From an uncultured Pelagibacteraceae bacterium (GTDB lineage Bacteria > Pseudomonadota > Alphaproteobacteria > Pelagibacterales > Pelagibacteraceae), in assembly GCA_902597675.1 (NCBI GenBank), contig CACJYR010000010.1:1-46168 (forward strand): a stretch of DNA of 46,168 nucleotides. Reading direction: 5' to 3'. Shown here piece after piece: positions 34,405 through 41,430 of this stretch (the stretch's first letter is position 1; each line of letters begins with the position of its first letter). The notes under the pieces were generated by a model, which did no database searches, was not told where the DNA came from, and was given only the letters and a program-made list of their open reading frames with translations. Both the position numbers and the translations under genes were made by a program.

Positions 34405-35619
34405 GTGAGCAAAATTAGCGTTAAAAACCCAATAGTAGAGTTAGATGGCGATGAAATGACCAGAATAATCTGGGAATTTATCAAGAAAAAATTAATACTT
34501 CCGTATTTAGATCTTGGCATCGAATATTACGATTTAGGAATGAAAAGTAGAGATGACTCTGATGATCAAATCACTATCGACTCTGCTAATGCAATTAAAA
34601 AAATTGGTGTTGGTATCAAATGTGCAACCATAACTCCAGATGAAGCACGAGTTGAAGAGTTTAAATTAAAGAAAATGTGGAGATCTCCAAACGGAACTAT
34701 CCGGAATATTATTGGAGGAACTGTATTTAGAGAACCCATAATTTGTTCTAACATTCCAAAACTTGTACCCTCTTGGTCCGATCCAGTAGTGATCGGGAGA
34801 CATGCATTTGGAGATCAATATAGAGCAACAGATTTCAAAGTGCCTGGCAAAGGTAAGATGGAAGTAAAATGGACCTCTGAAGATGGTAAAGATGAAATTA
34901 AATATGAAGTATTTAATTTTACAGGACCAGGGGTTGCGCTCTCGATGTATAATTTAGATAAATCAATTGAGGATTTCGCAAGATCCTGTTTTAGTTATGG
35001 ATTAATTAAGAATTGGCCAGTTTACTTATCAACTAAAAATACAATTTTAAAAAAATACGATGGGAGATTTAAAGATATATTTGAAGAGGTCTATAATAAA
35101 GAATTCAAGAAAAAATTTGAGGATGCAAAAATTACTTATGAACACAGATTGATTGATGACATGGTAGCGTGTGCAATGAAATGGAGTGGCAAGTATATAT
35201 GGGCATGTAAAAATTATGATGGTGATGTTCAATCAGATACCATGGCTCAAGGCTATGGCTCACTTGGTTTAATGACAAGTACACTGCTTACACCTGATGG
35301 AAAAATAATGGAGGCAGAAGCAGCACACGGAACAGTAACCAGGCATTACAGAATGCATCAACAAGGTAAAGAAACTTCCACAAATCCAATTGCTTCGATT
35401 TTTGCATGGACAAGAGGATTAGCACATAGAGGAAAACTTGATAGCAATGATGAGCTAATTAAATTTGCAAACACAATTGAAAAAGTTTGTATTGAAAGTG
35501 TTGAAAATGGCTCCATGACAAAAGATCTTGCAATATTGGTTGGACCCTCAAGTAAATATCTAACAACTAATCAATTTCTGGATGTAATTGATAACAATCT
35601 TAAACAGAAGCTAAATTAA
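34405..35619 (+). CDS. icd: NADP-dependent isocitrate dehydrogenase (type II)
   Basis: 404 aa homodimer-type IDH of the eukaryote-like subfamily. The N-terminus [66 protein letters not shown] and [12 protein letters not shown] are family marks; the metal site [13 protein letters not shown] and [17 protein letters not shown] follow. It makes 2-oxoglutarate and NADPH in the citrate cycle. The start is GTG at 34405. It converges with alaS and overlaps it by 9 bases. Confidence 0.97.
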
Positions 35620-38277
35620 AGCCTTTAGTTTTTCAAAAGCCTCATCAATTTTGTTTTTATCCTGTCCCCCTGCTTGGGCAAAATCTTTTCGGCCACCCCC
35701 ACCTTTGCCACCAATAATTTCTGAACCTAATTTTGCAAATTTTACAGCATCATATTTATCAACCAGTTTTTCAGTGACACCAACTCCTAAACCAACTTTA
35801 TCTTCACTACTTGCAAAGACAATTACAATTCCATCGCCAAGTTCTTTTTTTCCACTATCAACTAATTTTCTCAGATCTTTAGGGGGTAAATCTTGAACTT
35901 TTTGAAATCGAACTTTTATATCCTTTATTTTTTGATCATTAATAATATTTTTTGTTTTATCTTGAAGAACTGAATTAACATTCAATTGTTCAAGTTGTTT
36001 TGAAAGATTTTTTATAATTTCTTTTAAATCTTTATTATCAACTTTCGGTTTACCTCCAAGTTTTATTATTTGTGATGATAAGTCTTTGATAGTCTCCTCA
36101 TCCTTTTGTACAGATAAAGTTGAAAGCTTTTCTTTATTCTTAATAAAATCCTCAAGCTGTTTATCTCTTAAAGCCTCAACTCTCCTTACTCCTGCAGCAA
36201 TAGATGATTGACTGACAGTTTTAAATTTTCCAATATCTCCAGTATTTTTTACATGGGTTCCACCACATAATTCTGTTGAGAAATAAGTATCTTTTTCCTT
36301 ACCCATTGAAACAACACGAACTTCTTCACCATATTTTTCACCAAAAAAAGCTAACGCTCCCTTTTCTATTGCAGCTTTAGGTGTCATAATTCTTGTGGTC
36401 ACTTCAGAACCATTTTTAACATATTCGTTAACTAATTTATCTATTGTCTCTAATTCCTCATTAGTAATCGGTTTCATGTGACTAAAGTCAAACCTCAAAC
36501 GATCTGGTGCAACTAATGATCCTTTCTGCATCACGTGCTTACCTAAAGTTCTTCTTAAAGACTCATGAAGTAAGTGAGTTGCAGAATGATAAGCTTTTAA
36601 ATTGTTTCTTCTCTCAACATCAATTTTCATTTCAACTACATCATTAATTTTAATTTCTCCAGTTTTCACTGATCCATAATGAACAAATAAATCTCCAAGT
36701 TTTTTTTGCGTATCCTCAACTTCAAAAACTGAATTTCCAGAAACTATTGTACCTTTATCCCCGAGCTGTCCTCCTGACTCACCATAAAAAGGAGTTTGAT
36801 TAGTTATAATCATTCCTTCTTCTCCAGTAGATAATGATTTTGATTCCTGATTGTTTTTAATTAAATTTAACACTACTCCCTCAGATTGATTAGACTCGTA
36901 TCCCAAAAATTCTGTAGGACCAGTTTTATCTTTAATTGAAAACCAAATTGCTTCCTCTGAGCTGTCCCCAGATCCTTTCCAATTCTTTTTTGCAAGTTCT
37001 TTGCTTTTTTTCATCAACTCATCAAATTTTCGATGGTCAACTTTTAATGATTTATTTTTTAAAATATCTTCTGTGAGATCTAATGGAAAACCATAAGTGT
37101 CATATAATTTAAAAGCTACTTCACCTGATAACACTTTATCAATTTTTGAAATTTCATCATTCAAAATTTTAATTCCTCGATCAAGTAAAACTAAAAATTT
37201 TTCCTCTTCCATTTTTAATGTTTCTGTTATCAAAGACTCGGATCGCTCTAACTCTGGATAATTTCCAGACATTTCATTTTTTAAAGATTCAAAAATTTTG
37301 TAAAAAATAGGTTCTTTTGATCCCAATAAATGAGAATGCCTCATACCTCTTCTCATAATTCTTCTTAAGACATATCCGCGACCCTCATTGGATGGCAGAA
37401 CACCTTCAGCTAAAAGAAATGAACTTGCTCTTAAGTGATCAGCAATTACTCTAAAACTTGATATGTTATTATCAGCTTGTTTAACTTTAGTTACATCTGA
37501 TATCGAACTTATTAATTTCTTAAAATGATCAGTTTGATAATTGTCGTGTGTGCCTTGTAAAAGAGCAGCTATTCTCTCTAATCCCATTCCGGTATCTACA
37601 GATGGTTTGGGTAAATCTATTCTTTTATCTTTTGAAACTTGTTCATATTGCATAAATACCAAGTTCCAAATCTCAATAAAACGATCTCCATCTTGATCCT
37701 TTGTTCCTGGTAAACCACCTTTTAAATGATCACCATGATCATAAAATATTTCTGAGCAAGGTCCACAAGGACCTGTTTCACCCATTGACCAGAAATTATC
37801 TGACGTCGAAATTCTGATAATTCTATCATCTTTAAAACCCGCTATTTTCTTCCAAAAATTGAAGGCTTCATCATCTTCATGAAAAACTGTTACATAAAGT
37901 CTATTTTTATCTAAACCAAAATCTTTAGTGATTAAATTCCATGCAAGTTCAATTCCTCTCTCTTTAAAATAGTCCCCGAAAGAAAAGTTTCCCAACATTT
38001 CAAAGAAAGTATGATGTCTTGGAGTGTAACCAACATTCTCTAAATCATTATGTTTACCTCCTGCTCTGACACATTTTTGAGAAGTGGTAGCTCTTTGATA
38101 ATCTCTTTTCTCTAAACCGGTAAATACATTCTTAAATTGTACCATTCCAGAATTGGCAAACATTAATGTCGGATCATTGTTTGGAACTAAATTACTAGAC
38201 TCAACAATCTTATGATCATTCTTTTCAAAATATTTTAAGAACGTACTTCTTATCTCATTTAATGATTTCTGAGCCAT
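35611..38277 (-). CDS. alaS: Alanyl-tRNA synthetase
   Basis: 888 aa, full length. Domains in order: class II catalytic core ([40 protein letters not shown], positions 38097-37978), tRNA recognition, editing domain with [12 protein letters not shown] and [10 protein letters not shown] zinc ligands, and the C-Ala domain ending [18 protein letters not shown]. Its promoter and first codons are repeated, in decayed form, on the far side of the downstream-inserted TPR gene. The promoter (TAGACA, N16, TATTTT) lies so close that transcription should begin at or near the ATG. Confidence 0.98.
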
Positions 38278-38339
38278 ATTTTTAAAATACAGCTTTTTAA
38301 TTTTATGTCTACATAACAGTAAAGGGGGAAAGGCGCTTA
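38210..38339. repeat. Direct repeat copy A (functional alaS 5' end and promoter)
   Basis: Holds the first alaS codons, the alaS promoter (TAGACA 38311-38306 and TATTTT 38289-38284 on the minus strand) and 20 bases of the recA-terminator side. It matches copy B at 40113-40242, with a perfect 32-base block (38210-38241 with 40113-40144) and a perfect 20-base block (38320-38339 with 40223-40242); the middle is diverged with single-base indels. Copy A lacks the second half of the terminator stem present in copy B. Confidence 0.88.
38284..38311 (-). promoter_or_regulatory. alaS promoter
   Basis: TAGACA, 16-base spacer, TATTTT on the minus strand. The -10 ends 6 bases before the ATG at 38277, so the mRNA should be leaderless or nearly so. 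The same element, TAGACA-N16-TATCTT, is preserved in copy B (40214-40209 and 40092-equivalent 40192-40187 region), which supports it as a real conserved signal. Confidence 0.55.
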
Positions 38340-38449
38340 AATTAGGCGTTTATGTTTAACATACATAGCATTAGCTCAAAACAGTTAAGTAGACAATTTA
38401 AAATTAAGAAAAGATTAATCAGATAAATCAAATAACTATTTCCATTACC

Positions 38450-38478
38450 TAGACAGCTGATTAGAGGCTTGATATAAT
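38450..38478 (+). promoter_or_regulatory. Near-consensus promoter of the TPR/2OG gene
   Basis: TAGACA (38450-38455; five of six consensus bases), 17-base spacer, perfect TATAAT (38473-38478). The -10 ends 7 bases before the ATG at 38486, so transcription should begin at the start codon. No Shine-Dalgarno is present in the seven-base gap. Confidence 0.65.
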
Positions 38479-38485
38479 TTCGCTC

Positions 38486-39994
38486 ATGAAAAAAATCCAT
38501 GACGATTTTTTAAAACCACCTCAACAGCAATTAAATAATCTAATAAAGTATTATCAAGCTGGACGGTATGTTGATGCTGAAAAACTATCATTATCTATCA
38601 CTCAAGAATTTCCTAAACATCAATTTGCTTGGAAAGTGCTTGCCGTTTTGCTCAAACGAAATGGAAGGATAAATGAATCTTTAATTGTCAGTAAAAAATC
38701 TGTGCAGTTAGACCCACAGGATGCCGAAGCACACAATAATTTAGGTGTCCTACTGCAAGAACAGGGAAAATTATACGAAGCTGAAAAAAGTCATAGAAAA
38801 GCGATTGAGCTAAAACCAGACTATGCCGAAGCCCACAACAATTTGGGTAACACGCTGAAACAGCAGGACAAATTAGATGGGGCCGAAAAATGTTATAAAA
38901 AAGTGATAACATTAAAACCTGACTATGCTAAAGCCCACAACAATTTGGGTATACTACTAAAAGAACAAGGCAGAATAAAAGAGGCTGAAGCAAGCTATGC
39001 ACAAGCGATAAAACTAAAACCAGACTATGCCGAAGCCCACTACAATTTAGGTGTGTTACTGCAAGAAGAAGAAAGATTGGACGAGGCTGAGACAAGCTAT
39101 AATCATGCACTAACGCTTAAGCCTGATTTTACTGATGCATTGCAGAACAGATGGATGATATTATTTAGCCAAAAAAGATACGAAGTTGCACTAAAAGATG
39201 CCGACTTAATTACTTCCAAAAGTAATAGAGCATTTGACTTAATAACTCTGTATGCTTTGGGACGAACAGATGAGATTTATAAAAGAATTGAAACCCAATC
39301 TAATATTGATAGCGAAAATTTAGATATTGCTGCTTTTGCTGCATTTGTTGCTGAGTCAGAGAAAAAACCTACCGCATACAATTTTTGTCCTAATCCGATG
39401 GACTTTATACATATTTCTAATATCTCCTCTCACATTGAAAATTCTACTGAGTTTATAACAGAAGTAATAGGTGAGCTAAATAATATAAAAACTATTTGGG
39501 AACCACATGGAAGAACTACTCGTAAAGGATTTGTAACGGATAAAAAATTTAATTTATTTGAGAATTGTTCGGTAAAATTATCAAAACTTAAAGGGATTAT
39601 TTGTGATGAAATAAATGCTTATTATTTAAAATTTCAAAAAGAGACGTGCTCTTTTATTAAAAAATGGCCATCTGAAATTTTTCTTAATGGATGGCATGTC
39701 GTTTTAAAAAAACAAGGATACAATACTGCACATATTCATCCAACTGGGTGGTTAAGTGGGGTAATTTATTTAAAAGTGGTTCCAGCTCTTGAAAAAAATG
39801 AAGGTGCGATTGAATTCAGTTTGAATGGCCAATATTATCAACACAAAAAATCTCCTTACTTTATATTTCAACCTGAACTGGGAGATATAGTTTTTTTCCC
39901 TTCATCGCTCTTTCATAGAACTATTCCATTTACGACAGATACAGATAGAATTATTGTATCATTTGACTTAATACCAGATACAGCCAAACACTAA
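38486..39994 (+). CDS. TPR protein with C-terminal 2OG-Fe(II) oxygenase-like domain
   Basis: 502 aa. Residues about 44-213 hold one degenerate and four regular 34-residue tetratricopeptide repeats of the AEAHNNLG...LKPDY type. After a less conserved middle, the C-terminal 110 residues contain GWHVVLKKQGYNTAHIHPTGWLSGVIYL, GDIVFFPSSLFHRTIPF and DRIIVSFDL (from 39687 on), matching the putative 2OG-Fe(II) oxygenase family found behind TPR arrays. HIH and the later His would bind iron; the Arg of DRIIVSFD would hold 2-oxoglutarate. It probably hydroxylates a protein or small target held by the TPRs, which is inference. It is divergent in style: slightly higher G+C in the repeats, its own promoter, and flanking direct repeats. 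Confidence 0.85.
   Translation: MKKIHDDFLKPPQQQLNNLIKYYQAGRYVDAEKLSLSITQEFPKHQFAWKVLAVLLKRNGRINESLIVSKKSVQLDPQDAEAHNNLGVLLQEQGKLYEAEKSHRKAIELKPDYAEAHNNLGNTLKQQDKLDGAEKCYKKVITLKPDYAKAHNNLGILLKEQGRIKEAEASYAQAIKLKPDYAEAHYNLGVLLQEEERLDEAETSYNHALTLKPDFTDALQNRWMILFSQKRYEVALKDADLITSKSNRAFDLITLYALGRTDEIYKRIETQSNIDSENLDIAAFAAFVAESEKKPTAYNFCPNPMDFIHISNISSHIENSTEFITEVIGELNNIKTIWEPHGRTTRKGFVTDKKFNLFENCSVKLSKLKGIICDEINAYYLKFQKETCSFIKKWPSEIFLNGWHVVLKKQGYNTAHIHPTGWLSGVIYLKVVPALEKNEGAIEFSLNGQYYQHKKSPYFIFQPELGDIVFFPSSLFHRTIPFTTDTDRIIVSFDLIPDTAKH
38717..39124 (+). repeat. Four tandem 102-bp units encoding TPR repeats
   Basis: Residues 78-111, 112-145, 146-179 and 180-213 of the gene are in-frame 34-codon repeats. 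The DNA is also similar between units (for example GAAGCCCACAACAATTTGGG near 38828 and a near copy near 38932), suggesting recent internal duplication or gene conversion. Confidence 0.85.
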
Positions 39995-40103
39995 ATTTTG
40001 AGACTTAATTAAAAGAAAAAAATTTAAAACTCATAAGCGAAATTATATCTACAAAACTGAAAAAATAAGTTAGCATTGAACTCTTTTTTTAACTTATCTT
40101 GAT

Positions 40104-40181
40104 TGTACGATTTTATGATCATTCTTTTCAAAATATTTTAAGAATTTATTTCTTAATTTTATTTTATGATCTATTCACCAT
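40104..40181 (-). pseudogene. Decayed 5' fragment of alaS
   Basis: Reads from a former ATG at 40181 on the minus strand and corresponds to about the first 25 codons of alaS. It shares a perfect 32-base block with the real gene (40113-40144), then homology fades at about 40104. It has a premature stop at the sixth codon (where alaS has Leu) and a one-base insertion before the shared block, so it cannot be expressed as AlaS. It is part of direct-repeat copy B and is followed on the recA side by the recA terminator. Confidence 0.85.
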
Positions 40182-40242
40182 ACTTTAAGATACAGCTTTT
40201 TTATTCTATGTCTAGTTAGGGATAAAGGGGGAAAGGCGCTTA
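40113..40242. repeat. Direct repeat copy B (next to recA)
   Basis: Second copy of the alaS 5' region, in the same orientation as copy A. It includes a relic promoter (TAGACA at 40214-40209, TATCTT at 40192-40187 on the minus strand) and merges into the intact recA terminator. The remainder of the 39995-40281 gap, which has no intact gene, consists of this repeat, an AT-rich 3' tail after the TPR gene and the terminator. Confidence 0.88.
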
Positions 40243-40256
40243 TAACAAGCGCCTTT
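40232..40256. terminator. recA terminator, probably bidirectional
   Basis: Perfect 10-base-pair stem AAAGGCGCTT / AAGCGCCTTT with a 5-base loop, 25 bases after the recA stop. Short T-runs lie on both sides, so it can also stop transcripts from the plus-strand TPR/2OG gene. In copy A only the first half remains. Confidence 0.85.
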
Positions 40257-40281: not shown

Positions 40282-41430
40282 TTAGTTCTTTTTGGAAGGA
40301 GTAGCTTCTTTTGCAGCCTCTTCTTTTTCAGCTACTTTCTTCTCTTTTTCAATTTTTTCAGGACTTAATGGATTTCCTTCAATTTTCTTTGAAATCACTC
40401 CTGCTTTTTCTCTAATTGCCATTTCTATTTCTGCAGCAACTTTAGGATTTTGAGCAAGATAAGTTTTTGCATTTTCTCTACCTTGACCTATTTTTTCACC
40501 TTTATAAGCATACCATGCTCCTGATTTTTCAATAATGTCAGCTTTAGCACCTAGGTCAACTAACTCACCCATTTTGCTAATTCCTCTGCCATACATTAAG
40601 TCAAACTCAACAACTTTAAATGGTGGTGCAACTTTATTCTTAACTACTTTTACTCTTGTAGTGTTTCCAATAATTTCATCTTTATCTTTGATAGCACCAA
40701 TTCTTCTAATATCCATTCTTACAGATGAATAAAACTTCAACGCATTTCCACCTGATGTTGTTTCTGGACTTCCAAACATAACTCCAATTTTCATTCTAAT
40801 TTGGTTAATGAAAATCATCATTGTGTTTGTATTTGAAATTGAACCAGTTAATTTTCTTAAAGCCTGACTCATTAATCTTGATTGAAGACCAACATGATGA
40901 TCACCCATCTCACCTTCAATTTCAGCTTTTGGAGTTAAAGCTGCAACAGAGTCGATTACGATAACTGAGATAGAGCCTGATTTTACTAGCGTATCAGCGA
41001 TTTCTAAAGCTTGCTCACCTGCATCTGGTTGAGAAATTAAAAGTTCTTCAGTATTCACTCCTAATTTTTTCGCATAGACTGGATCTAAAGCATGCTCCGC
41101 ATCAACGAATGCACAAATTCCACCCGCCTTTTGAGCTTCAGCAACTACTTGTAATGCCAATGTTGTTTTTCCAGAACTCTCTGGTCCATAAACTTCAATA
41201 ATTCTTCCTTTAGGTAAACCACCTATTCCTAAAGCCAAATCTAAACTTAAAGAACCTGTAGATATCGACTCGATATCCATCGCTCTTTTTTCGCCCAGCT
41301 TCATAACTGAACCTTTTCCAAAATTGTCAGTTATCTGGCTAATCGCAGCATCTAATGCTTTGTTTTTTTCTTTAATATCCAATTCTTGATCTTTTGTAGA
41401 TTTAACTACTTTTAAGTTATTTTTTGTCAT
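40282..41430 (-). CDS. recA: Recombinase RecA
   Basis: 382 aa, a little longer than E. coli RecA because of a charged Lys/Glu-rich tail. It forms the ATP-dependent filament on single-stranded DNA for recombination and triggers LexA/UmuD self-cleavage. Marks are [32 protein letters not shown]-loop [46 protein letters not shown] and the MISQAL-type loop [13 protein letters not shown] candidate LexA box lies inside its promoter spacer, and GAGG (41440-41437) gives a Shine-Dalgarno. Confidence 0.98.

Follow-up and report, generated by a model that had tools for sequence, protein, structure and literature searches.

The recA–alaS Gap of Pelagibacter Lineages, a Probable Slot for Small Gene Cassettes Imported by Homologous Recombination

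We propose that the gap between recA and alaS is very probably a slot at which homologous recombination brings small gene cassettes into Pelagibacter lineages. The stretch analyzed, here called the window (WIN), is 46,168 nucleotides of an uncultured Pelagibacteraceae bacterium (contig CACJYR010000010.1 of assembly GCA_902597675.1). In the window, a gene sits between recA and alaS, flanked by two copies of the alaS start. Relatives have the empty state, several cargos are found at the same position, and alaS genes at filled sites have mosaic breakpoints; in the window itself, the recA terminator hairpin is decayed in one copy of the junction only. We infer the order of transfers, the founding duplication event and the route of DNA uptake. 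Our confidence is slightly reduced because, between the window and the second carrier clade, recA differs hardly more than the cargo does, and because the putative donor does not resolve to one lineage.

Few mobile elements are known from streamlined SAR11 genomes, and for that reason SAR11 gene trading is an open question. The recA–alaS gap is a readable case of such trade, with empty sites, several cargos (a restriction-modification-like set among them), mapped crossovers and a scar that marks the native part.

The Duplicated alaS Start

The original prediction, made from the letters of the window, was of a decayed, same-orientation repeat of the alaS start with exact blocks of 32 and 20 bases. 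The alaS promoter and codons 1–25 are indeed present twice at 82% identity (Table 1), and both exact blocks can be read in the sequence. We call the copy beside the working alaS copy A and the copy beside recA copy R, or the relic; WIN_A, WIN_R, MED11_A and MED11_R are named likewise. A repeat scan finds the pairs 38195–38252 / 40098–40155 (84%) and 38281–38348 / 40184–40251 (81%), each with a spacing of 1903, and blastn over the junction aligns copy A with the relic at 81.8% over 137 columns (E 3e-33). The local score of the match is 145, whereas 1000 dinucleotide shuffles gave a mean of 22.6 and a maximum of 38, so the repeat is beyond what shuffled AT-rich sequence yields. A check for further copies had also been suggested; a whole-genome search finds no third one in the genome's own assembly at E ≤ 0.001, 40107–40242 being the sole other match.

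In the window, the relic carries a frameshift and stops. In the other two known carriers, the sister genome G700 and SAG-MED11 (MED11; also L066 and G370), it is an open 28-codon frame. The relic end after codon 25 is identical in all three. An artefact of single-cell amplification or assembly might be suspected, given that the names of many named relatives follow single-cell conventions (AG-, SAG-), with some titled MAG, and that one contig, from G134, is palindromic. With copies that differ by 18% and an arrangement common to three separate assemblies, the chance of an artefact is practically negligible.

Table 1. Features of the recA–alaS region of the window.
Feature	Position	Strand	Remark
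alaS	35611..38277	-	intact; first ~8 codons of foreign type
Copy A: imported promoter and 5′ UTR, with alaS codons 1–25	38204..38339	-	immediately upstream of working alaS; codons native beyond about codon 10
alaS promoter-like site in copy A	38284..38311	-	TAGACA-16-TATTTT; conserved in relatives
recA terminator hairpin remnant in copy A	38329..38352	-	decayed; -3.2 kcal/mol
Promoter-like site of TPR/2OG gene	38450..38478	+	TAGACA-17-TATAAT
Cargo gene, TPR repeats and 2OG-Fe(II) oxygenase domain (PF13759)	38486..39994	+	502 aa
Terminator-like hairpin between cargo gene and relic	40060..40099	.	weak; -6.1 kcal/mol
Copy R (relic): native promoter region and broken alaS codons 1–25	40107..40242	-	
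recA terminator hairpin	40232..40256	-	intact, native type; -14.7 kcal/mol
recA	40282..41430	-	intact

Promoters, Terminators and the Cargo Protein

The layout around the repeats is as predicted: a single gene between them, and recA, its intact terminator and the alaS relic on the far side of that gene. The predicted near-consensus promoter of the gene is an 11/12 sigma-70-type match, the best of 9; the count of matches is uninformative (9, and 9.5 on average in shuffles). The cargo −10 box and start (GATATAATTTCGCT-ATGA, 38466–38489) recur inverted just past the stop codon (40031–40052), similarly in G700 and more weakly in MED11.

In the window, the junction is split, that is, the recA terminator is kept in the relic and the alaS promoter in copy A. 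Since the two copies contribute one half each, the cell tolerates the insertion. The copy A hairpin of G700 folds at −6.7 kcal/mol. That of MED11_A still folds at −12.9 kcal/mol via other pairings, which counts against the half-junction picture. A terminator pattern scan listed none in the recA–alaS stretch; the recA hairpin was missed because it is without the T run that the scan requires. alaS is probably near-leaderless, judging from a −10 box that ends 6 nt before the ATG.

The cargo protein matches Pfam TPR_1 at 127.9 bits (cut-off 27.8) and PF13759 at 80.3 bits (cut-off 27; 403–494, E 1.5e-22). In PHROGs, it matches a phage 2OG-Fe(II) oxygenase family (E 2.6e-25). Residues H416, H418, H477 and R488, the putative iron and 2OG ligands, are invariant in 7 homologues. 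The predicted structure models the TPR part only; pLDDT is below 50 for 271–502, so the model of the oxygenase site is unreliable. The protein probably hydroxylates a substrate that its TPR part holds.

At E 1e-50, the cargo is matched in 9 of 399 genus genomes. Six of these matches include the oxygenase part (the window, MED11 and four at other loci), and three (G110, G243 and G223) share the TPR part alone. At the four other loci (L205–L208), a similar TAGAC region lies upstream of the homologues, three of which are shorter by 68 aa, or about two repeats, in the TPR part. No flanking host-gene duplication is found there, only internal TPR repeats of at least 35 nt; the duplicated junction is thus not a constant companion of the TPR-2OG gene. 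Viral carriage was considered as well, and the cargo protein has no match among IMG/VR viral contigs in a scan that reaches close relatives only.

Empty and Filled Junctions in Relatives

A search with the alaS N-terminus found matches in 107 of 151 genus genomes, and the named-genome scan covers the best 80 loci. The junction table holds 241 distinct rows from 273, one of which (L011) shows G110 a second time, so that 240 junctions remain in a sample biased to close relatives (the best 80 loci plus the upper part of a longer match list). Thirteen short or duplicate loci and the four loci without alaS (L205–L208) had been left out before the count, and G700, found later, stands outside it.

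The junction is empty in 229 of the 240, the window's nearest relatives included, with a gap of 75–103 nt. This agrees with the expectation that recA and alaS were originally neighbors, and it is the opposite of all relatives carrying the gene with no duplicated alaS start. Two further junctions have longer spacers of 133 and 183 nt with no visible gene. These enlarged spacers (183 nt in L120 and 133 nt in L134, from G073 and G095) have a AAGCTTGTTAATACAC stretch in common and are perhaps footprints of lost cargo. The remaining nine junctions bear genes, of five cargo kinds. WIN, G223 and G243 are counted here on account of their cargo; excluding them, 6 of 237 junctions are filled. Empty sites and different cassettes at one position are what the original prediction of a slot for cassette exchange among SAR11 strains had called for.

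The cargo kinds are as follows. Kind (a), the TPR-2OG oxygenase, is found in the window, SAG-MED11 and G700. Kind (b), TPR plus methyltransferase, is found in G110 and G243 by Pfam and in G223 by length and 3′ sequence. G110 and G243 share the cassette and its ends though they are distant, with recA proteins 99% and 87% identical, respectively, to the window's. Kind (c), in SAG-MED13 (MED13) and G025 (L070:673–4197; L181), has two tandem C5-cytosine DNA methylases and, after them, a third gene without a Pfam or PADLOC match in the scans on MED13. We read (c) as a restriction-modification-like set, with a nuclease suggested by position alone. Kind (d), in AG-914-B04 (B04; G018), consists of a sigma factor (Pfam), a gene overlapping its end, which we read from its position as an anti-sigma, and two genes without a Pfam match. 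Kind (e) is a lipoprotein-like gene on the palindromic contig of G134. In that contig (C9; L149), alaS is present twice on opposite strands, likely an amplification palindrome, and G134 was accordingly rejected as a second double-junction genome. The cassette ends vary among cargos.

A site-specific recombinase or transposon could also have inserted the gene, restoring the alaS 5′ end. Some known elements do restore the start of their target gene, and the right-hand junction of the relic is constant across the three carriers. This is very unlikely in view of the cargos: Pfam finds no recombinase in the window insert or in nine cassette proteins of four other genomes (four of the nine have no Pfam match at all; the cargos of G025, G223 and G134 are outside the scan). 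In addition, no long junction repeat is found at the seven other filled sites, either at E 1e-3 or, for G223 and G243, in a repeat scan, and the crossover position varies inside alaS.

The window cassette, including the relic, is also present in G700 and, in another clade, in SAG-MED11. Between WIN and G700, RecA is 99.7%, AlaS 99.3% and the cargo 97.6% identical at the protein level; judging from these values, the cassette of these two genomes is shared by descent. That only three duplicated-junction carriers are known, two of them close sisters, counts against our preferred explanation. Among the 33 two-match genomes beside the window's own (two candidates scored per genome), only MED11 has two junction copies at one locus; apart from the palindrome above, the other second matches were rejected as fragments of 20–67 nt.

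Mosaic alaS Genes

If cassettes enter by homologous recombination, the alaS of a filled site may change type along its length. It does so in two other filled genomes. In B04, sites favor donor over own by 58:12 before a break at nt 390–399 and by 17:357 after it; in G243, the counts are 20:3 and 15:438 around a break at nt 84–96. Neither pattern was reached in any of 2000 permutations, while three empty-site controls gave 369, 579 and 1829 of 2000. Identities in 60-nt windows step at the same places as the B04 and G243 breaks. Because alaS in these genomes is a mosaic, foreign at the 5′ end and native after it, we conclude that cassettes enter by homologous recombination together with a donor alaS start. 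In such clear cases, the recipient acquires the promoter and 5′ end of the donor's alaS along with the cassette.

The alaS of the window behaves similarly, with few 5′ sites: using L035 and MED11 as the pair, the break is at nt 24–31, with donor:own 4:1 and then 27:299 (0/2000). With L034 as own and L063 as donor, it is at nt 150–153, with 10:11 and then 19:287 (0/2000). G223 and MED13 have shallow breaks, with 5′-side counts of 22:20 and 29:22, and MED11 and G110 show no clear identity step inside alaS. The breakpoint test left out G025 and G134, for which there is no alaS sequence. Together with the empty relatives and the several cargos, the breakpoints bear out the suggestion that the gene entered by homologous recombination or duplication and left a broken alaS start.

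The identity between WIN and MED11 is less decisive. At the nucleotide level, it is 89–97% in the cargo gene, 77–88% in alaS beyond its start, 89–96% in windows of recA (91.7% overall) and 65–80% in the larger part of the next upstream gene. Compared with alaS, the cargo is clearly more similar; compared with recA, it stands out little.

Native and Imported Parts of the Two Copies

The original prediction held that one copy may have come from another strain. This is correct for part of the DNA: the imported segment comprises the promoter in copy A and the initial codons that follow it in the working alaS, as the WIN_A UTR is only 81% identical to its own clade. The terminator and promoter of the relic are native, the relic 5′ UTR being 98% (WIN_R) and 98–100% (MED11_R) identical to own-clade empty sites. 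Among empty sites, the best match to the WIN_A UTR is 90.6% (L126). The MED11_A UTR is 87% identical to its own-clade empty site and 98% to L131, L139, L211, L221 and L123. By recA, L131, L139, L211, L123 and L210 form a group (90.8–93.3% mutually, 85–89% to the window and MED11). Four of the five best MED11_A promoter matches thus group together, and L221, which matches equally, groups elsewhere; a single clade as the source of that promoter was therefore rejected.

Site counts place the switches. With own L063 and donor L131, MED11_R has own:donor 5:0 in the UTR and 3:6 in nt 1–46, and MED11_A has 0:5 and 10:0. With own L065, the counts are 5:1 and 3:8 for R, and 0:6 and 10:2 for A. For the window, the UTR counts are 11:0 in WIN_R and 4:7 in WIN_A. 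In coding nt 1–46, WIN_R favors own over L131 by 4:1 (2:2 with L210), which counts against a foreign relic coding part. The foreign origin of that part rests on bases shared with MED11_R, as follows. The relics of WIN, G700 and MED11 have the bases at nt 5, 11 and 72 in common, which are missing from both own clades. They also agree at nt 32 and 36, where the own clade of the window differs. The shared bases, and the same end after codon 25, point to one origin for the relic coding part in all three carriers, with a promoter side that is native in each. In MED11, relic nt 54–60 look native again.

In WIN_A and G700_A, alaS codons 2–3 are of the MED11-clade type (AQK), and the sequence is native from nt 31. 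A MED11-like lineage was probably the source from which the window's lineage received the cassette. At −50 to −45, WIN_A has CCCCC, as in its own relic, and G700_A has TTCCC; the four own-like WIN_A UTR sites are located here. We take these bases as a sign that, within the lineage of the window, the two copies underwent gene conversion with each other; this may also lie behind the exact 20-base block.

A Model for Cassette Movement

In the proposed mechanism, the TPR/2OG cassette carries a second copy of the junction, comprising the recA terminator, the alaS promoter and alaS codons 1–25. It would have passed from one lineage to another when crossovers fell within the two copies, at or close to the alaS promoter block, which hardly varies. 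For the window, we place the left crossover around the start codon of the relic, and the right crossover near alaS codon 8–10. With crossovers at these positions, recA would keep its native terminator, the adjoining start would become the relic, and the working alaS would use an imported promoter and first codons.

Two origins of the founding duplication were weighed. The first, to which we give nearly an even chance, is homology-facilitated illegitimate recombination: one end of a linear donor piece recombined inside alaS, and the other attached, with no homology, behind codon 25 of the recipient's alaS. The stop of the relic after that codon in all three carriers fits such a join, as do B04 and G243, where the crossover on the right falls within alaS and the join on the left close to the terminator. 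Two papers lend precedent, one reporting the process for three competent species (PMC3240628) and the other proposing it for Vibrio T6SS modules (PMC5361080). What argues the other way is that relic nt 7–36 of MED11 are mostly non-own, so the illegitimate event would sit in another lineage, with transfer later. In addition, no near-identical carrier is found among 200 relatives of G112 (31 genera; the lineage itself is thinly sampled), where the three matches are other-locus homologues (G049 and G059) and the G110 cassette.

The second origin, which we rate as rather unlikely, is single-crossover (Campbell-type) integration of a circle carrying the TPR gene and one junction. The direct repeats around the insert and the clean empty sites agree with it, and the repeats could release the circle again. 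In MED11, R and A also both change between own and other type in one and the same stretch (−40 to +7), as a single reciprocal crossover would leave them. A conserved promoter block would equally favor two independent crossovers, however, and the two switch points of the window do not coincide (no later than nt 5 in R, nt 24–31 in A). Neither a circle nor a recombinase is seen.

A bolder proposal, which we consider unlikely, is that the recA–alaS junction is a recombinase-free cassette port, its copies acting like attachment sites for RecA, from which the cassette can be excised as a circle that re-enters any empty site in the population. If so, a cargo would bring a donor alaS start and, in the duplicated form, a whole spare terminator–promoter junction, and neither essential neighbor would ever be interrupted. 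Import by homologous recombination, in its simpler form, suggests that a conserved terminator–promoter junction between two housekeeping genes is enough for a gene-exchange site.

As for uptake, MutS_V, Competence (ComEC) and DNA_processg_A (DprA) have no match in the genome's own assembly, which is about 81% complete; 11, 10 and 11 of 14 control genomes, respectively, have them. The lack of ComEC and DprA matches is weak evidence against classical transformation, and phage or gene-transfer agents may be the route of delivery.

Comparison with Known Systems

Among the papers listed in literature searches, no title or abstract opening describes a recA–alaS slot in SAR11. One parallel is promiscuous recombination. 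According to PMC12374537, other SAR11 lack mutS/mutL and have relaxed recombination, and recombination of shared genes is argued at around 90% identity. The genome studied here, without a MutS match, is alike in this respect. It differs in that the lineages involved are about 77–92% identical in alaS/recA, and in that a new gene is inserted.

Flexible genomic islands, as outlined by Lopez-Perez et al. 2014 (PMC4033161), likewise have strain-varying content at one location and crossovers in conserved flanking genes. The recA–alaS slot differs in size, with one to four genes between two housekeeping genes, and is mostly empty. Its cargos have unrelated functions, whereas surface clusters are replaced in the islands, and in one case it retains a duplicated junction scar.

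For the Vibrio cholerae T6SS effector modules, homology-facilitated illegitimate recombination is proposed (PMC5361080); the resemblance would lie in an anchored homologous end, a remnant of the old gene and later homologous spread. There, the remnant is a kept immunity gene; here, it is the nonfunctional first 25 codons of a housekeeping gene, and the illegitimate step is hypothetical. Gene slots exchanged by recombination are thus already known, and what the recA–alaS case adds is an unusually legible scar.
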